DNA from: Patescibacteria group bacterium
GTDB taxonomy: Bacteria; Patescibacteriota; Microgenomatia; UBA10105; UBA927
DNA: 36,596 bases
Direction: 5' to 3'
Assembly: GCA_018821245.1 (NCBI GenBank)
Contig: JAHJMO010000031.1
Coordinates: 1-36,596, forward strand
In this document: positions 26,620 through 34,012 of the stretch, one piece after another
Layout of the letters: the number at the start of each line of letters is the position of its first letter
Position numbering within the stretch: position 1 is the stretch's first letter
Program-made: the position numbers and the translations under genes
Notes under the pieces: generated by a model
The model's database searches: none
What the model was told of the DNA's origin: nothing
What the model saw: only the letters and a program-made list of their open reading frames with translations

Positions 26620-27096
26620 ATGAAAAACAAAATGACGCTTTTGTATATAGGACTTGTCGTTTTATTAATAGTAACCGGTGTCGTGGTATACAAAGCCGTT
26701 TTTGCTCCCAAATTGCAACTGCCGGTAGTAAAGGAGGAGAAAGAACAGGTTAAGCCGACACCGGTTGTAGCAGACTCGAATTTAGTGGTAACCGCTAAAT
26801 GGAGCAAGGCGGCGAGCAATACGGTAGTTTTAAGCGTAAGCAATCTGAACAGTAAATATCAAAATGTGGCTTACGAGCTGACTTACGATAGTCAGGGGTT
26901 GATAAAAGGAGTCAATTCCGGCAGTAAACCCATCGATGTAATCGGAAAAGACAGTTTCCAGCGGGAAATTTACCTGGGTACCTGTTCCAGAAACGTCTGC
27001 AAGCCGGATCTGGGGATCAAACAAGTCTCGGTTGTTCTTGAATTTACCGATTCGCTTGGGCAAAAAAGCCAGTTCAGCAAAGATTTTGACTTATAG
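26620..27096 (+). CDS. Membrane-anchored hypothetical protein (158 aa)
   Basis: The N-terminus is a single uncleaved-looking helix (LLYIGLVVLLIVTGVVVY, residues 8-25). A Lys/Glu/Pro-rich spacer follows, then an outer domain of about 105 residues of beta character (NLVVTAKWSK; VVLSVSNLNSKYQNVAYELTY; VVLEFTDS). Two cysteines close together (CSRNVC) could form a disulfide. I do not recognise the family; the fold looks immunoglobulin- or FxLYD-like. The last 23 residues are clearly related to the fragment encoded at 28433-28549 (17 of 23 identical), showing that a second copy once existed. Confidence 0.65.
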   Translation: MKNKMTLLYIGLVVLLIVTGVVVYKAVFAPKLQLPVVKEEKEQVKPTPVVADSNLVVTAKWSKAASNTVVLSVSNLNSKYQNVAYELTYDSQGLIKGVNSGSKPIDVIGKDSFQREIYLGTCSRNVCKPDLGIKQVSVVLEFTDSLGQKSQFSKDFDL

Positions 27097-27107
27097 TCTA
27101 TTCCTGC

Positions 27108-27404
27108 CTAACATTTTTCCTTGCTTGTTATTTGTAAATGAGGAGAAGAATCTCTTTTTTCTATTCCTAATGTGGTTGAACCAAAGCCATCTACGATTAT
27201 TTGATCCTTACCACCGGCCGTTTTATAAACCGTTATGCCACAAGCTACGGCGATTTCAGACACTTCTCCTCTTTGACTTTTGCCAAGAATATCTATTGGA
27301 ATTCAGAAGTAAAGTGATTGCCACAACTCCGGTGGATTTTTGAAGAAAAGATACTTTAGGTTACCGACACTTAAGGTTTGTCTATCTTTTACCCTGTGTG
27401 TCAC
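27108..27404 (-). pseudogene. Minus-strand small-protein frame broken by one TGA
   Basis: From GTG 27404 the minus strand reads 33 codons (starting with M-T-H-R-V-K, ending ELWQSLYF) to a TGA at 27305-27303. The same frame then stays open for 64 codons of protein-like sequence (IPIDILGKSQRGEVSEIAV, later VDGFGSTTLGIEKR) to a TAG at 27110-27108. The whole would be a 97-98 residue protein with one nonsense codon. The GTG lies 8 nt after a TTGACA-N17-TAGCGT promoter, the leaderless layout seen elsewhere in the window. Family not recognised. It may be a recently dead gene, or a real 33-aa peptide gene with chance open frame behind it. Confidence 0.45.
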
Positions 27405-27441
27405 AGTGACAGACGCTATCCCCCCCCACAAGTTTTGTCAA
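27399..27441 (-). promoter_or_regulatory. Minus-strand promoter with operator-like palindrome
   Basis: On the minus strand TTGACA (27441-27436) and TAGCGT (27418-27413) are 17 nt apart; the spacer contains a run of eight G. A perfect 13-bp palindrome, TGTCACTGTGACA (27411-27399), covers the expected start site and could be a repressor site. Confidence 0.5.
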
Positions 27442-27510
27442 GTCCTGGTGCCATTTTTATGATTATGAAGATAACGCGTAACCATTAGCCCCTTGAGGTG
27501 GGGAGCGGTG

Positions 27511-27554
27511 AAAGTAGTTAAAATAAAAGCTATAGCTTGTCGATTGACTACTTA
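27511..27554. repeat. 44-bp imperfect palindrome, left copy
   Basis: The arms AAGTAGT/ACTACTT enclose a perfect 12-bp core AAGCTATAGCTT (27527-27538); 16 of 22 positions pair. Its right arm contains TTGACT, which serves as -35 for the PaaX-like gene, so a protein bound here would block that promoter. It has the same length and core as the copy at 28366. Confidence 0.8.
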
Positions 27555-27572
27555 ATAAACGTAAGATAGAGT
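27544..27572 (+). promoter_or_regulatory. Promoter of the PaaX-like gene
   Basis: TTGACT (27544-27549) and TAGAGT (27567-27572) are 17 nt apart, and the GTG start at 27580 follows 7 nt later, giving a leaderless transcript. The -35 box lies in the palindrome arm, which points to self-control. Confidence 0.55.
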
Positions 27573-27579
27573 AGAGGTT

Positions 27580-28383
27580 GTGAAGCGAAAATCTAAGACA
27601 CGGAAGATAAGTAGAGTTGCGTTACAACTTGCAGAAGGACTGTTTGCGCATGCCGTGGATTTTGGACTTTGGGTAACGATATATTTTGCCGAAATGAGTG
27701 TGCCTCAATCCCAATCTGGTCAGCTTTGGCGTGCGCGAGTTGGCGCAGATAGGTTTCTCAACCAAGTTAACTATGAGGTTATCAAAAACGCGATACAGAC
27801 AGCCAGAAAACGCGGCTGGGTGAAAGTGGTCAAGCGCCGGGCGTCTCCGGAAATTACGAAAGCCGGTAAAGAGCGATTGTCGGCAGTTCTTCCTACATAT
27901 GACGAAAAGCGCGCCTGGGACGGGCGAATGCACCTGGTAACCTACGACATTCCTGAAGAGAAAAAGCATGATAGAGAGCTGCTCCGTGGATATTTGCGCC
28001 GGTTGGGATGCGGGATGCTTCAAGATTCGGTGTGGATGACGCCGTACAATCCGATTGACACACTCCGGTCTTTTATTTCGGAGCATGGATTAAGCGGCAC
28101 GATTATCATTTCCGATATTGGGAAAGACGGATCAGTTGGTGAAGAAGATCTGCATGGATTCATTGTCCGCGTCTATAAACTCGAAAAGCTTAATGAGCGG
28201 TATGAAGAGTGGCTTGAGCAGGCGGACACTTTCGGACGCATTGATCAGCAATTGCTTATTTTTTATCTTTCAATTCTTAGGGATGATCCGCAACTGCCGT
28301 TTGTGCTATTGCCGAACTGGTGGAAAGGAGATATAGCATACAATAAAGTTCGAGATATTTTAACTAAAGTAGTCGATTTTTAA
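27580..28383 (+). CDS. PaaX-like transcriptional regulator with Cas2-like domain
   Basis: The 267-aa protein has three parts. A basic N-terminal winged-helix region (about 10-105) ends ITKAGKERL, like the wing of PaaX/GntR-type factors. A Cas2-like ferredoxin domain (116-182) carries HLVTYDIPEEKKHDRELLRG, with the Asp of YDIP where Cas2 has its metal-binding Asp, and GCGMLQDSVWMTPYN. A C-terminal part contains RYEEWLEQAD and LPFVLLPNWWKGDIAY, the PaaX C-domain pattern. It is best read as a DNA-binding repressor; there are no CRISPR repeats nearby. GTG start chosen for its leaderless promoter. The stop codon lies inside the right-hand palindrome. Its target is probably the palindromes themselves. 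Confidence 0.75.
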   Translation: MKRKSKTRKISRVALQLAEGLFAHAVDFGLWVTIYFAEMSVPQSQSGQLWRARVGADRFLNQVNYEVIKNAIQTARKRGWVKVVKRRASPEITKAGKERLSAVLPTYDEKRAWDGRMHLVTYDIPEEKKHDRELLRGYLRRLGCGMLQDSVWMTPYNPIDTLRSFISEHGLSGTIIISDIGKDGSVGEEDLHGFIVRVYKLEKLNERYEEWLEQADTFGRIDQQLLIFYLSILRDDPQLPFVLLPNWWKGDIAYNKVRDILTKVVDF

Positions 28384-28409
28384 GCTATAGCTTTTAAATT
28401 GACTACTTA
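28366..28409. repeat. 44-bp imperfect palindrome, right copy, overlapping the stop codon
   Basis: The arms AAGTAGTC/GACTACTT pair perfectly over 8 bp and the core is again TAAGCTATAGCTT; 18 of 22 positions pair. Its left half encodes the last residues (VVDF) and stop of the PaaX-like gene. It could act as terminator, second operator or element end. Confidence 0.8.
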
Positions 28410-28432
28410 CGAGGAATGACTTTGGTTTTTTG

Positions 28433-28549
28433 ATGATGATTTATCAAATCATTGGAACTCAACACGTAGATGCAGGGGTCAGCGTTTTCCTCGAATTCAC
28501 TGACTCATCCGACAACCGCAGTCAATTTTCCAAAGACTTTGAGCTTTAA
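28433..28549 (+). pseudogene. C-terminal remnant of a paralog of the 158-aa protein gene
   Basis: The frame ending TAA at 28547-28549 encodes VSVFLEFTDSSDNRSQFSKD followed by FEL. The intact gene at 26620 ends VSVVLEFTDSLGQKSQFSKD and FDL. Seventeen of 23 residues agree while many codons differ at the third base, so the duplication is old and was under selection for a time. Nothing of the N-terminal anchor or first domain is found upstream; instead the palindrome-bounded PaaX-like gene is there. It is a broken gene, possibly cut by that insertion. Confidence 0.7.
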
Positions 28550-28643
28550 GGCGTTTTTTGTTCGTGAAATACCACTTGACCCATTCGGCTTGCTTAGGAT
28601 CAATCCCCTCGTGAAAACTCGGGGCTTGACAAGGCGTGAAAAA

Positions 28644-28682
28644 TGGGTAACTATGGATATAGATGGGAAGAAGTGGTAAGAT
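28644..28682 (+). promoter_or_regulatory. MraZ-box-like repeats and -10 box upstream of mraZ
   Basis: Four TGG-type units start at 28644 (TGGGT), 28654 (TGGAT), 28664 (TGGGA) and 28674 (TGGTA), each exactly 10 bp apart, like the TGGGN-N5 repeats bound by MraZ in other bacteria. The last unit overlaps the -10 box TAAGAT (28677-28682), which ends 6 nt before the mraZ ATG. A consensus TTGACA at 28626 may serve another start. Self-repression by MraZ is expected. Confidence 0.7.
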
Positions 28683-28688
28683 AGGGTC

Positions 28689-29093
28689 ATGAAACTATTC
28701 CTTGGGGAATACGAGCACAGCTTGGATGATCGGGGCCGCGTGACGCTCCCACGAAAAATAAGGCAAGAGATAGAAGAGAGGGAATTAATCTTAGCCAGGG
28801 GATTTGACAACTGCATATTTGGTTTTGACAAAGGGAGTTGGGAGAAAGAAGCGGGTAAGCACCTTGACACGCCGGTGACCGACAAAGGGGGTCGGCGAGT
28901 GCGCCGATATCTCTTCAGCGCGGCCCAAAAAGTTGAGATCGACAAGCTTGGTCGTATTCTACTGCCTGCCCAGCTCAAGGAATACGCTTCCATAACCCGA
29001 GAATTAGTGGTGATCGGCGCCGGCGACCATTTTGAAATCTGGGATAAAGAGAACTGGAAAAAGCTTTCCGTCTCTTTAGATCAAAATGAATGA
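28689..29093 (+). CDS. mraZ: Transcriptional regulator MraZ
   Basis: The 134-aa protein has the two swapped-hairpin AbrB-like repeats of MraZ: HSLDDRGRVTLPRKIR (10-25) and VEIDKLGRILLPAQLK (82-97), both with the D-x-x-G-R core. MraZ forms a ring that binds tandem TGGGN repeats and controls the dcw operon, and matching repeats lie just upstream. Length is slightly below the usual 140-150 aa. The gene heads the division/peptidoglycan cluster and overlaps rsmH by 8 nt. Confidence 0.92.
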   Translation: MKLFLGEYEHSLDDRGRVTLPRKIRQEIEERELILARGFDNCIFGFDKGSWEKEAGKHLDTPVTDKGGRRVRRYLFSAAQKVEIDKLGRILLPAQLKEYASITRELVVIGAGDHFEIWDKENWKKLSVSLDQNE

Positions 29094-29967
29094 TTATCAC
29101 GTCCCGGTGATGCTGAAAGAAGTAATTGACGGTTTGAACATTAAACCCGGAAAGAAGTATATAGACGCGACGATTGGCGGAGGAGGACACGGGTGGGAGA
29201 TAGTTAAGTTGGGAGGGTATTTATTAGGAATAGACACAGATCGGGACGCTTTAGAGTTTGCGAGGCGGAAATTAGAAGATAGAAATTCGAAACTAGATAG
29301 AGCAGAAAGCTGGAAACTGGTTCAGGGGAATTTTAGGAACATTGAAAAGATTGCGAAAGAAAACGGATTTGATAAAACAGATGGAATTTTGTTTGACTTA
29401 GGAGTGTCGAGCCATCAGCTTGACACTCCTTCCAGGGGATTCAGTTATCGGTACGCGGACGCTCCTTTGGATCTCCGGTTTGACCAGAGATCAGGTGAGA
29501 CAGCTAAAGAATTGTTGGCGGGGATTTCGGAGGCAGATTTATATGAAATACTTATACGATTTGGTGAAGAGAAGCTGGCTCGGCGCATTGCTCGTGCTTT
29601 TATTCTCGCCCGTACCGCAGGACCGGTTGAGACAGTCGGGCGCGTAGCGTCGATTGTGGCGGATATTTCGGGAACGAAGCGAGTTGAAGCAACACTTTCA
29701 CGGGTATTTCAGGCCGTCCGGATAGCAGTAAACAGTGAGCTTGAAGCGCTAAAAGACGGGTTGAGCGGGGCTTATAGCCTGCTTCGACCGGGCGGAAGGC
29801 TTGTTGTAGTTAGTTTTCATTCGCTTGAGGACAGAAAGGTAAAGAGATTTATGCGAAGCGGAGGGTGGAAAACAGTCACGAAGAAGCCGATAGTTGCAAC
29901 ACAAGCTGAACGAAGGGAAAATAGCCGGTCCAGAAGCGCAAAGTTACGTATAGCAGAAAAACTTTGA
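29086..29967 (+). CDS. rsmH: 16S rRNA (cytosine(1402)-N(4))-methyltransferase RsmH
   Basis: The 293-aa protein begins YHVPVMLKEVIDGLNI and has the SAM site YIDATIGGGGHG (25-36), DGILFDLGVSSHQLD, RGFSYR, PLDLRFD and VVSFHSLEDRKVKRF, all RsmH hallmarks. It methylates C1402 of 16S rRNA on the small subunit. A variable stretch (RNSKLDRAESWKL, about 66-78) follows the SAM-ribose strand and is encoded by loosely heptameric DNA at 29283-29320. Gene order mraZ-rsmH is the common one, and the overlap suggests co-translation. Confidence 0.93.
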   Translation: MNDYHVPVMLKEVIDGLNIKPGKKYIDATIGGGGHGWEIVKLGGYLLGIDTDRDALEFARRKLEDRNSKLDRAESWKLVQGNFRNIEKIAKENGFDKTDGILFDLGVSSHQLDTPSRGFSYRYADAPLDLRFDQRSGETAKELLAGISEADLYEILIRFGEEKLARRIARAFILARTAGPVETVGRVASIVADISGTKRVEATLSRVFQAVRIAVNSELEALKDGLSGAYSLLRPGGRLVVVSFHSLEDRKVKRFMRSGGWKTVTKKPIVATQAERRENSRSRSAKLRIAEKL

Positions 29968-29971
29968 ACGT

Positions 29972-30277
29972 ATGAAACGGATACTTAATATAATTTTGGG
30001 CATATTGCCGCTTTGTGCATTGATTCTTATCGGCGTTGAGGTTTTCATATCTAATGAGCTGGCAGGAACCGGAGGAGAGCTGGCCAATATAGAATCCCGT
30101 ATAAGCCAGGAAGCAGGAGAGCGTGAAGTACTCTATACAGAAGTAGCATCAGCTTCCTCACTTCTGGTCATCCGGCAGAAAGCGGAGACATTGGGATTTG
30201 CAGACCCCGGCAAGAACCAGATCATTTCATTAGCTCCGGATCAACTTCCTGTAGCTGCTTTATATCATCTGCAGTAA
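29972..30277 (+). CDS. ftsL: FtsL-like small division protein
   Basis: The 101-aa protein has one N-terminal membrane helix (about residues 5-27) followed by a short predicted coiled coil (ELANIESRISQEAGEREVLY) and an outer tail with IRQKAETLGFADPGKNQII. Sequence is weakly conserved in this family. The assignment rests on topology and on the position between rsmH and ftsI, where FtsL (bacterial division scaffold, partner of FtsB and FtsI) is normally found. It starts 5 nt after rsmH and ends 10 nt before ftsI. Confidence 0.7.
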   Translation: MKRILNIILGILPLCALILIGVEVFISNELAGTGGELANIESRISQEAGEREVLYTEVASASSLLVIRQKAETLGFADPGKNQIISLAPDQLPVAALYHLQ

Positions 30278-30286
30278 GATAGATAT

Positions 30287-31966
30287 ATGTGGCGAATTTG
30301 GGCGGCTTTTGTATCCTTCGTCATTGCGTTTGCCATCATAATTACCCGATTGTTTTATTGGCAGGTTCTAGCTTCGGAGAGCCTTCGTACGGCCGCATCT
30401 TCCCAGCACCATGTAGAGCTCCTGTTGCCGGCGGCACGGGGATCTATCTATGCGTTGGATAGAAGTCCGCTTGTTATCAATCAGCCCGCTTTCCTAGTGT
30501 ACACTCAACCTAAAATTATCAAAGACGTGAAACTATTCACACAACAAGTTTCTCAGGTATTGGGCATAGAGAAAGACACACTTGCCGAACAGGTGCAGGA
30601 ACCGGATAAGGTATGGGTGCCGTTGGTGCATAAAGCAGAAATCGGAGTCGTGGACAAGCTGAAAGAACTTCACCTGGAAGGTCTTGGGTTCGAAAAAGAG
30701 CCTAAGCGTTATTATCCGGAAGCGTCAATTGCCGCGTATATTTCGGGATTTGTCGGGTCTGATGTGAACGGGAACGATAGGGGATACTTCGGGTTGGAGG
30801 GGTACTATAATCAGGAGCTTACCGGAAAATCCGGTGTCATCAGGCAGGAGAAAGACGCGAAGGGTGCGCCGATTCTTATCGGTGAAGCGATGCGGATAGA
30901 GCCGGAGAACGGAAGGGATCTTGTAGCGTGGGTTGATCGAGCGGTCCAGGAGATCGTTGACCGAAGGCTTATGGAGGGCATAAGGAAGTATGGAGCAAAA
31001 GAAGGGTCGATTGTCGTTATGGATCCCAAAACAGGAGGAATTATGGCGATGGCAAATTACCCGTCCTACGACCCCGCACACTACAATATGTATGATAAGT
31101 CGATCTACAAAAATCCGATTGTTGCCGCCAGCTACGAACCCGGATCTACGTTTAAGGTTCTTGTCATGAGTGCAGCCTTACAGGAAAAACTGGTGACACC
31201 GACAACGACAATGGATGAAAGTGGTCCGGTAGAGGTTGGTGAATACGCGATTCGCACCTGGAACAACGAATATCACGGCACAATTACAATGACGCAGGTT
31301 TTGGAGCATTCATCAAACGTCGGGATGGTATACGTAGCGCGTAAACTTGGGATAGAGACGTTTCTTCGGTACCTTACATTATTTGGTTTCGGTGAGTCCA
31401 CGGGGATAGATATGGAAGAAGAAACTTCACCGGACCTGCGTCCCGCCAAAGAATGGAAGGATATTGACCTTGCGACCGCATCGTTCGGACAGGGAATAGC
31501 ACTGACTCCCATCCAGATGGTTCGTGCCGTCGGATCTTTGGCAAACGGGGGTTGGATGATGGAGCCTCGTGTGGTGAAAGAAATAATAGGGGCAAAAAGT
31601 AAAACAATAACGCTTCCACCCAAGAAAATACGTCAGGTGGTAAGCGAAGCTACAGCCCGTATTATTACGGAAATGATGGTTTCCGCTGTTGATCAGGGAG
31701 AGGCGAAATGGGCAAAGCCGAAAGGGTATCGTATAGCAGGTAAAACCGGCACGGCGCAAATACCCGTTGCAGGCCATTACGACGAGAAGAAAACAATCAC
31801 TTCGTTTGTTGGATTTGCGCCGGCTGACAATCCGAGGTTCGTGATGCTTGTGACACTGCGTGAACCGTCTTCTTCGCCGTGGGGGTCTGAAACAGCTGCG
31901 CCTTTGTTTTTTACGATCGCACGCGACCTGTTCACCTATTGGGCAATTTCTCCGGACAGTCAATAG
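30287..31966 (+). CDS. ftsI: Peptidoglycan D,D-transpeptidase FtsI (class B PBP)
   Basis: The 559-aa protein has an N-terminal membrane helix (5-25), a pedestal domain with LLPAARGSIYALDRSPL, and a transpeptidase domain. The three active-site motifs are present: STFK (287-290, serine nucleophile), SSN (342-344) and KTGT (486-489). It cross-links septal peptidoglycan outside the membrane. Its context, directly after an ftsL-like gene, supports FtsI rather than an elongation PBP. No PASTA domains follow; the protein ends soon after the transpeptidase fold. Confidence 0.92.
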   Translation: MWRIWAAFVSFVIAFAIIITRLFYWQVLASESLRTAASSQHHVELLLPAARGSIYALDRSPLVINQPAFLVYTQPKIIKDVKLFTQQVSQVLGIEKDTLAEQVQEPDKVWVPLVHKAEIGVVDKLKELHLEGLGFEKEPKRYYPEASIAAYISGFVGSDVNGNDRGYFGLEGYYNQELTGKSGVIRQEKDAKGAPILIGEAMRIEPENGRDLVAWVDRAVQEIVDRRLMEGIRKYGAKEGSIVVMDPKTGGIMAMANYPSYDPAHYNMYDKSIYKNPIVAASYEPGSTFKVLVMSAALQEKLVTPTTTMDESGPVEVGEYAIRTWNNEYHGTITMTQVLEHSSNVGMVYVARKLGIETFLRYLTLFGFGESTGIDMEEETSPDLRPAKEWKDIDLATASFGQGIALTPIQMVRAVGSLANGGWMMEPRVVKEIIGAKSKTITLPPKKIRQVVSEATARIITEMMVSAVDQGEAKWAKPKGYRIAGKTGTAQIPVAGHYDEKKTITSFVGFAPADNPRFVMLVTLREPSSSPWGSETAAPLFFTIARDLFTYWAISPDSQ

Positions 31967-32003
31967 GGTATCTCGGTTTCGGACGTATGTGTGTCGCCCA
32001 TGA

Positions 32004-32009
32004 TATAAT
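32004..32009 (+). promoter_or_regulatory. -10 box for the murE-like gene, leaderless
   Basis: A consensus TATAAT ends 7 nt before the ATG at 32017, with no Shine-Dalgarno site. It decides the murE start in favour of 32017 over frames reaching back into ftsI. Confidence 0.6.
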
Positions 32010-32016
32010 TGATGTC

Positions 32017-33237
32017 ATGCTTCGGAGTCTCAAAGGGCTTGGCCACCTGCTCATTGCGATTTTTTCTGTACTTTGGTACCGGTTTCCCAGCCGCCATCTA
32101 ACCGTGATCGGAGTTACCGGCACTGACGGCAAGACCACAACAGTCACACTCATATATGAAATTCTCAAAGCAGCGGGATTCCGGACTTCGATGATTTCTT
32201 CTGTCCATGCGTCTATTGCCGGCAAGGTGTATGATACAGGCTTTCACGTAACTACTCCGAATGCCTGGTATATTCAAAAATACCTGCGGGAGGCGCTCAA
32301 CAATGGCGATACTCATATGATTTTGGAGGTGACTTCGCACGGACTCTCCCAACACCGGGTGTGGGGAGTGCGGTTTGCGGTGGGTGTTATTACAAACGTC
32401 ACCCATGAACATCTCGATTGGCACGGGACATTCGCCAATTATCTCGCGACCAAAATTTCGCTTTTAACCCGTTCGCGCATTGCCGTTATTAATCGCGATG
32501 AAGCAGAGTCTTACACCAAGGCTATGCCCAAGCTGGTTCGGAAAAAATACATTACCTATGGCATCCGCAGAGAGGCGATGGTGACACCCAAAAATTATCC
32601 TTTTCAGACTACACTTTGGGGCGATTTTAATAGGTATAATATCCTGTCCGCCATTGCGGCTACCTGCCAAGGGTTGGGAGTGGATAAAAAAACAGCTGCT
32701 GACGCAGTAGTTAGCTTTAAGGGCGTACCCGGGAGGATGGAGGTGGTGGCCGATAAGCCATTTTGTGTGGTTATAGACTTTGCCCACACCCCGCATGCCA
32801 TTGACGTCGCCCTTCAGACCATTCGCCAAATGACGAAGGGGAGAATTGTTCATGCTTTTGGTTCGGCTGGCGCACGCGATACGCTTAAACGCCCGATTAT
32901 GGGCCGGATGTCAGCTAAATACGCTGACGTTATTGTCCTTACCGAGGAAGATTATCGCCGCGAAAGCGTGGAAAAGATTATGGATGAGATTGCCGAGGGG
33001 ATTACGGCGGGAAAGGCTGTCTACCGCTACCCCAACCGCCAGGAGGCGATTAATTTTGCCATATCAATAGCCAAACCCGGCGATACCGTCATTTTAACCG
33101 GCAAAGCCCATGAAAAAAGTTTGTGCCGCGGCAAAGTTGAGCACCCTTGGGATGAATTCAGAGCGGTTCGTCTGGCTCTTGAAAAAGAAAGCGAAGGACG
33201 AAACAAGAACAACAATGTTAAGCAAAACAAAATCTGA
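32017..33237 (+). CDS. murE: MurE-like UDP-MurNAc-peptide ligase, lacking domain 1
   Basis: The 406-aa Mur ligase has the P-loop VTGTDGKTTT (33-42), the NAWYIQKYL region, LEVTSHGL, NVTHEHLDWHGT, FNRYNILSAIA, GVPGRMEVV, DFAHTPHAID and the final LTGKAHEKS. It should add the third amino acid to UDP-MurNAc-L-Ala-D-Glu. Two departures stand out. The usual N-terminal UDP-binding domain (about 90 residues) is missing and only a hydrophobic stretch (LLIAIFSVLWY) precedes the P-loop. The DNPR-type specificity motif reads EDYRRES, so diaminopimelate or lysine use cannot be assigned. A related ligase with another role is possible. Confidence 0.75.
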   Translation: MLRSLKGLGHLLIAIFSVLWYRFPSRHLTVIGVTGTDGKTTTVTLIYEILKAAGFRTSMISSVHASIAGKVYDTGFHVTTPNAWYIQKYLREALNNGDTHMILEVTSHGLSQHRVWGVRFAVGVITNVTHEHLDWHGTFANYLATKISLLTRSRIAVINRDEAESYTKAMPKLVRKKYITYGIRREAMVTPKNYPFQTTLWGDFNRYNILSAIAATCQGLGVDKKTAADAVVSFKGVPGRMEVVADKPFCVVIDFAHTPHAIDVALQTIRQMTKGRIVHAFGSAGARDTLKRPIMGRMSAKYADVIVLTEEDYRRESVEKIMDEIAEGITAGKAVYRYPNRQEAINFAISIAKPGDTVILTGKAHEKSLCRGKVEHPWDEFRAVRLALEKESEGRNKNNNVKQNKI

Positions 33238-33949
33238 AGTATATCAATCAACACTTCTTTCCTCGATTAGTGGCGTAGTTCACGGCTACACCGACCGTAT
33301 ACTGGGAGACATGAAGAAGAACCCGCAAAACCGGCAAAAGGTTCTTGACGGGTTTTTTAGTGAGAAAGTCAAGCTTATTACCGCGGAACAAGTGCATGGT
33401 GGCGGTGTCGCCCTCGTCAATGATGCGACTGTAAGTTATTTCCCGGGAGTTGATGGGCTTGTGTACAAGCATAAGTCCGGTGAAGTGGTTGCGCTGGGGG
33501 TATTTGTGGCGGATTGTGTGCCTATGCTTCTGGTTGATCCTAAGGCCGAGATTATCGCCGCGGTGCATGCCGGATGGAAAGGGACACTTTTAGATATTAC
33601 TTCAAAGACGGTATGCCTGATGAAATCTCTCGGAGGTTTACCCCGGGACATTGTTGCATCAATTGGCCCGCATATTGGCATGTGTTGCTATGATGTCGGG
33701 GAAGAACGCGCGAAGATGTTTCAGAAAGCGTTTGGAAACGATCGGAAGATTGTTTCTATTACAGAAAGAGCCTGGCATCTGGATTTGGGTATGGCCAACA
33801 GAAAACAGCTTCTGGATTCTGGCGTACTTATTGAGCATATTGATGCACCACCCGTGTGTACGTCCTGTCTAAACAATAAATTTTTCTCTTATAGAAAAGA
33901 TAGTTCCGAAACATTTGGCGAGATGTTGGGATTGATCGGATACAGATAA
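33215..33949 (+). CDS. pgeF: Peptidoglycan editing factor PgeF (YfiH/laccase-domain family)
   Basis: The 244-aa protein has the Cu-oxidase_4 (DUF152) triad: H61 in AEQVHGG, C101 in VADCVP and H118 in AAVHAGWKGT, plus IGPHIGMCCYDVG and the closing PPVCTSC region. In Escherichia coli PgeF removes wrongly built UDP-MurNAc-L-Ser products; family members are also reported to act on purine nucleosides. Its place between murE-like and murC genes fits the editing role. The ATG at 33215 overlaps the murE end by 23 nt and is chosen over 33110, since homology begins after it. Confidence 0.85.
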   Translation: MLSKTKSEVYQSTLLSSISGVVHGYTDRILGDMKKNPQNRQKVLDGFFSEKVKLITAEQVHGGGVALVNDATVSYFPGVDGLVYKHKSGEVVALGVFVADCVPMLLVDPKAEIIAAVHAGWKGTLLDITSKTVCLMKSLGGLPRDIVASIGPHIGMCCYDVGEERAKMFQKAFGNDRKIVSITERAWHLDLGMANRKQLLDSGVLIEHIDAPPVCTSCLNNKFFSYRKDSSETFGEMLGLIGYR

Positions 33950-34012
33950 AACAATCAAAAACTCACCTTAGAGGTGTATTATATTAGTATTACTTAAAAA
34001 GGAAGCAGATGT
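33950..34012 (+). terminator. Weak hairpin between convergent genes
   Basis: CACCT-TAG-AGGTG (33964-33976) forms a 5-bp stem with a 3-nt loop, followed by an A/T-rich stretch without a clean T run. It lies between pgeF and the minus-strand gene, so a weak terminator is plausible. Confidence 0.35.

Follow-up and report, generated by a model that had tools for sequence, protein, structure and literature searches.

REP sequences are thought to be copied by RAYT proteins, and to our knowledge this HUH family provides the only enzyme described so far for palindromes of the REP type. In REPtrons, which combine REPs with a gene for TnpA-REP (RAYT), a resident gene of low copy number and vertical residence is found with cognate palindromes that coevolve with its protein and are dispersed as solo copies (PMC8266576). 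The gene family described here is alike in these respects. It differs in that its protein is PaaX/Cas2-like and not of the HUH/Y1 type, in that hundreds of REPs with a GTAG tag are replaced by 0-5 solo copies per unit in which no common tag was seen, and in the strict pairing of its palindromes at the promoter and the stop codon. Rickettsia palindromic elements also lie in frame inside conserved genes of a small genome (reviewed in PMC10969869), as a palindrome does here in leuS, but they measure ~150 bp, whereas the palindromes here span about 44-50 bp and come with a candidate cognate protein. IS200/IS605 elements share with our units a single gene with palindromes near both ends and, in one genome, a bias to one strand; however, their TnpA Y1 transposase is absent here and no fixed cleavage sites were seen.

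With respect to the protein, the family resembles E. coli PaaX (PDB 8a39) in its three-domain architecture and in sequence and fold, and binding to imperfect palindromes is likewise to be expected. Unlike PaaX repressors, it keeps the Tyr-Asp-Arg residues of Cas2, is not associated with a paa operon, and may be present in as many as 11 paralogs per 1.1-Mb genome, almost every one of which has a palindrome of its own at either end of the gene. The ferredoxin-like domain and the Y-D and R residues are shared with the Cas2 of CRISPR adaptation, but the domain is fused here between a winged helix and PaaX_C. A role in CRISPR adaptation was rejected because the host genome has no Cas1, a gene present in two of the 39 genomes searched.

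The window analyzed here is a stretch of 36,596 nucleotides (contig JAHJMO010000031.1) from a 1.08-Mb patescibacterial genome (G000), which is related to Candidatus Gottesmanbacteria and other named Microgenomatia. An earlier note on this DNA had described a PaaX/Cas2-like gene with a 44-bp palindrome at either end, the first holding the -35 box of the gene and the second overlapping its stop codon, and all of this was reproduced, including the shared core and the arm pattern (Table 1). The open reading frame is intact. The two dyads are 80% identical with the core AAGCTATAGCTT unchanged, and the self-complementarity of their arms is 79% and 88%. Their pair score of 61 exceeds both the maximum of 32 found in 60 dinucleotide shuffles and the 99.9th percentile (49.8) of 607 control ORFs. 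Genome-wide, the 12-bp core has two sites, both of them in these dyads, and the arm pattern AAGTAGT-N28..32-ACTACTT is likewise confined to them. A scan of ~98% of the genome, covering all but C33:20001-42604, found no third 44-bp copy. A function of the right palindrome as an intrinsic terminator was rejected, as no T-run follows the dyad.

Table 1 Features of the PaaX unit and its surroundings, in window coordinates.
Feature	Position	Strand	Remarks
p158, intact upstream 158-aa gene	26620..27096	+	in most relatives directly before mraZ
Left palindrome, dyad with AAGCTATAGCTT core	27511..27554	.	44 bp; overlaps promoter region of the PaaX-family gene
Putative -35 box TTGACT	27544..27549	+	in right arm of left palindrome; from reading of the sequence
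Putative -10 box TAGAGT	27567-27572	+	partner of the TTGACT -35-like box
PaaX-family protein, 267 aa	27580..28383	+	winged-helix N-terminus, Cas2-like middle domain, PaaX_C; Pfam/NCBIfam, profile and fold matches
Right palindrome, cognate to left	28366..28409	.	44 bp; overlaps TAA stop (28381-28383)
Decayed duplicate of p158 3' end (last 23 codons)	28478..28549	+	tblastn E 5.6e-7, 74% identity
mraZ, right-hand anchor gene	28689..29093	+	conserved in 36/39 genomes

The encoded protein has the architecture of the PaaX family, with a Cas2-like PaaX_M domain (PF20803; 6e-17, over the cut-off) between the winged-helix N-terminus and a PaaX_C match that lies slightly below its cut-off (4e-4, 21.1 bits against 22). 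It scores 27 bits with the TIGR cas2 profile and 58 bits with the equivalog of the phenylacetate catabolism repressor (TIGR02277), far from the latter's cut-off of 265. In the Cas2 protein SSO1404, residues Y9, D10 and R17 are important for cleavage. In our alignment they correspond to Y122, D123 and R132 of the window protein, which are kept across the family and would make its Cas2-like domain one of the catalytic type; the Tyr-Asp pair is absent from E. coli PaaX. A profile search matched the protein to E. coli PaaX (8a39) at 5e-6, and with an AlphaFold2 model of mean pLDDT 85 the fold search ranked the same structure first (E 9e-8), ahead of M. tuberculosis Rv0674 and many Cas2 structures. 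The protein contains no known transposase type or motif. A phmmer search with E. coli RayT gave no match in 98% of the host genome, although a divergent Y1 enzyme would escape such a search. Among the open-access papers searched, we found none linking PaaX with Cas2 or with Patescibacteria. A second subfamily (L015, L016, L017 and L048) has proteins of about 230 aa with PaaX_M and no PaaX_C, in which a hydrophobic segment precedes the winged-helix region, and carries the same paired palindromes.

Genes of this kind are patchily distributed. Eleven occur in the host genome, one of them broken, and they were found in 17 of the 39 genomes of the relatives search, with none to several per genome, and, when a strict cut-off was applied, in 30 of the 374 genomes from the class. 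We gathered 70 distinct PaaX loci and compared the sequence before each start with that after the stop. The best palindrome pair exceeded every shuffle in 50 of 53 units, and pair scores lay above the 99th percentile of control genes at 49 of 66 loci and above the 99.9th percentile at 31 of 66; at the lower-scoring loci a pair is still visible in most cases. No pair was visible in the distant homologs L039, L165, L190 and L191, and the score of E. coli paaX (29) equals the control median. The 1.16 Mb of sequence retrieved contains 38 strong dyads, of which 33 are palindromes of such units. Each unit has palindromes of its own: their cores include GCGGCCGC, CCGGCCGG, CACGTG, CGATCG, CTATAG and CCATGG, and their arms differ. 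Two PaaX units lie about 5 kb apart at about 27500-34000 of G000:C14 (L118), and their common downstream segment of about 0.8 kb is 82-87% identical. In L066, tandem right-hand palindromes (6782 and 6848) both have the unit's unusual TGTA core.

The two copies of a pair differ in their setting. In most units, the center of the right copy lies no more than ~27 bp from the stop codon, and matches of at least 10/12 to a sigma-70 promoter occur in 11 of 49 left copies and in none of 49 right copies. In L178 (G146:C12) the left dyad is spanned by TTGACA-N17-TAATAT. The PaaX gene of this locus is frame-broken, and the near-perfect palindrome pair is retained together with this textbook promoter. Since some left copies carry sigma-70 promoters and right copies none, autorepression through the left palindrome, as proposed for the window gene in the earlier note, is likely. 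These genes could be plain PaaX-type repressors, with the left palindrome as their own operator, the copy at the stop codon reinforcing repression through looping or keeping transcription from running past the gene end, solo copies as operators of a few target genes, and patchiness arising from ordinary loss and gene transfer. The protein is indeed PaaX by sequence and fold, and some members of the family have a sigma-70-like promoter that the left copy overlaps; however, the tie of the right copy to the stop codon in almost all units and the lack of a third site for the window unit in its genome argue against this explanation. We judge such a paired-operator repressor with few targets rather unlikely, while regarding it as the strongest rival.

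Within a unit, left and right copies match in 33.2 of 44 positions on average, against 17.4 of 44 between units, and 45 of 49 left copies find their closest match in the right copy of their own unit. The core 8-mer is identical on both sides in 36 of 49 units, compared with 5.9% in non-cognate pairings. Furthermore, units with more similar proteins tend to have more similar palindromes (Mantel r 0.39, p 0.0005). Because copies match within units and their similarity tracks that of the proteins, the palindromes appear to be cognate to the protein that their unit encodes. In L066 and L073, which are orthologous units with 76% protein identity, the cores differ between the genomes and agree inside each unit; both copies of a unit therefore change together. 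Such joint change is expected if the encoded protein recognizes the sites or if one of them is copied to the other.

Solo copies of cognate palindromes, which lay beyond the view of the earlier note, were found in five genomes (G000, G015, G024, G035 and G036). In the host genome, the C23 unit has four (37-38/44), the C18, C14a, C14c and C28 units have one or two each, and the C13 unit has a doubtful one; a control scan of this genome with reversed queries gave none. A candidate at C13:44323 in a membrane-protein gene was set aside as not being a clear insertion. The five solos of the G015 unit share its contig and its strand, with none elsewhere in 1.5 Mb, and its left copy and right copy agree with one solo in all 44 bp. 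Beside this unit (L057:2875-6789, G015:C15) lies a cassette-like row of genes in which cognate palindromes separate lipoprotein genes and an unknown 260-aa gene, the latter flanked on both sides by identical 44-bp copies. Cognate palindromes at the gene together with dispersed copies, as in REPtrons, are thus a property of the family, and the window unit is one without a solo.

The positions of the solos bear on the repressor explanation. The leuS gene of G035 contains a 40/44 copy in frame, which codes for residues 737-752 and forms an insert of ~16-18 aa that is absent from aligned PDB LeuRS chains. In G000, a copy in mvaD coincides with a net insert of 8-10 aa and is a probable insertion, and another is present at the def-fmt junction, which in G015 measures 18 bp and has no palindrome. 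Several solos lie at gene 3' ends, on stop codons or between convergent genes, and no target-site rule was found among them. The in-frame copies in leuS and probably mvaD recall the Rickettsia palindromic element in the kind of event only. Some solos, 28-118 bp upstream of starts, could act as operators, as expected for plain repressors. Nevertheless, target operators are a poor explanation for copies that lie within leuS, probably within mvaD, on stop codons and between convergent genes, and those within genes are the best evidence against the paired-operator repressor. In L078, a third cognate palindrome (2603-2646) lies upstream of a neighboring LytR_C gene, so that the middle palindrome is common to two genes.

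The earlier note had also taken the neighborhood of the window gene, with a dead minus-strand gene and a broken paralog, for an insertion hotspot. Stops interrupt all three minus frames at about 27100-27500, and the broken paralog consists of residues 136-158 of p158, repeated in decayed form to the right of the unit; this duplicate is significant as protein and not as DNA (108 vs a shuffle maximum of 132). Most relatives have the gene order glyRS-p158-mraZ-rsmH without a PaaX gene, and the mraZ locus is empty of a PaaX unit in about 20 of them. The duplicate lies 139 bp from the mraZ start, against 119-190 bp in relatives with the plain junction, and thus occupies the position of the p158 end in those genomes. 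In G018 (L095), a duplicate of the p158 3' end lies between p158 and mraZ with an unrelated remnant inside and no PaaX unit, and we therefore regard the p158 3' end as an insertion hotspot, in agreement with the earlier note. G012 also has a unit beside mraZ, whose protein is 67% identical to that of the window and whose right palindrome is degenerate; the right outer flank is shared with the window and the left is different. The earlier note had named orthologs with conserved outer flanks and no right-hand palindrome as evidence against its proposal; the G012 locus half matches this description, and the differing flanks and empty sites that the note had suggested looking for were found. A minus-strand gene seen at L094, L097, L104, L105 and L051, which we take to be phosphoglycerate-mutase-like, fills the p158-mraZ gap in genus g8 and is found to the left of the PaaX unit in G012. 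An intergenic repeat containing CACCTCCTCCGG adjoins both G012 PaaX units (L041 and L051).

Duplicates of the 3' end of the upstream gene were found to the right of three units: that of the window (23 codons), L078 (20 codons) and L073 (10 codons). In a triplet scan for such duplicates, two of 22 PaaX cases scored high, against about one of 524 others. In addition, one and the same gene has the unit on one side in L065 and on the other in L072. From these comparisons the units appear to have entered new sites, though rarely. The duplicates speak against plain repressors, for which, on the other hand, the retention of both palindromes in units inherited in place is a point in favor. Several units, namely L066/L073, L002/L052 and L055/L056, have kept their site across genera. 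No near-identical unit copies occur inside any one genome, so the gene has not transposed recently, and the window unit itself looks resident because only its own two palindrome copies exist.

The single gene inside paired subterminal palindromes, the one-strand bias of the G015 copies and the patchy distribution would also suit a strict transposon, with the PaaX/Cas2-like protein as transposase and the two palindromes as ends, as in IS200/IS605. Yet we consider this highly improbable, given the lack of near-identical copies, of a constant junction distance and of a known transposase motif, and the stable residence of orthologous units. The distance from duplicate to palindrome varies (8-68 bp on the right, 40-404 bp on the left) and the G018 duplicate has no unit, and the duplicates are therefore not the signature of a fixed-end transposon. 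Fixed ends with a target-site duplication, as in a classical DNA transposon, were not found, the 3'-end duplicates being at variable distance and seen in three units only; nor was a target duplication of fixed length seen, and to the earlier note none had been obvious. A simple transposon with target-site duplication was also rejected at the level of DNA, where direct repeats were significant only in L037/L078, besides L041, in which a local repeat explains them. Phage or plasmid cargo was rejected as well, there being no relatives in IMG/VR, INPHARED or PLSDB.

Alternatively, the units may be passive cassettes that, once taken up as DNA, are integrated through homology-facilitated illegitimate recombination, leaving the old upstream 3' end behind and carrying their palindromes along as operators. 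The variable-junction duplicates in the window, L078 and L073 fit such recombination, as does the p158 duplicate without a unit in G018. However, the dispersal of solo palindromes without the gene and the leuS insert would be left unexplained, and we find this explanation improbable, if less so than a strict transposon.

Our combined findings lead us to give just over even weight to a family of minimal, perhaps formerly, selfish units, each consisting of one PaaX/Cas2-like gene and the palindrome copies recognized by its product. The encoded protein would bind its private palindrome as a dimer, leading to autorepression where the palindrome lies over the promoter, and the palindrome at the stop codon would close the unit. 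The palindrome would be copied elsewhere as a solo repeat, as is proposed for REPs and RAYT proteins, and the whole unit would occasionally land downstream of a new gene. The mobile single-gene unit comparable to REP-associated transposase genes that the earlier note suggested thus holds in its layout, with paired palindromes at most of 66 loci, but not in full, as the protein is of no known transposase type, no unit boundary was found and several units were inherited in place. Judged from sequence, the layout, covariation, dispersal, patchiness, empty loci and Tyr-Asp-Arg residues are best read as a palindrome system of the REPtron kind whose protein is PaaX/Cas2-like; binding and autorepression by this protein, and dispersal by it through its Cas2-like domain rather than by another enzyme, are what we infer. 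A bolder proposal, that a winged-helix protein of the PaaX type which contains a Cas2-like nuclease domain copies its operator palindrome around the genome without Cas1 or an HUH transposase and so propagates its own gene, would define a new class of mobile DNA, and we put it forward as a tentative possibility. We know of no demonstration of strand-transfer chemistry by a Cas2-like domain without Cas1.

How most REP-type and in-gene palindromic elements spread is unsolved, and here the palindrome covaries with a tightly linked protein whose fold is not that of the RAYT family. The PaaX/Cas2-like protein belongs to a lineage connecting Cas2 with a transcription factor, with the solo copies as a direct readout, and a domain of the catalytic Cas2 type may have a role outside CRISPR. 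For Patescibacteria such as this host, the findings suggest an undescribed family of repeat-making selfish genes, possibly a compact selfish element in genomes of ~1 Mb.
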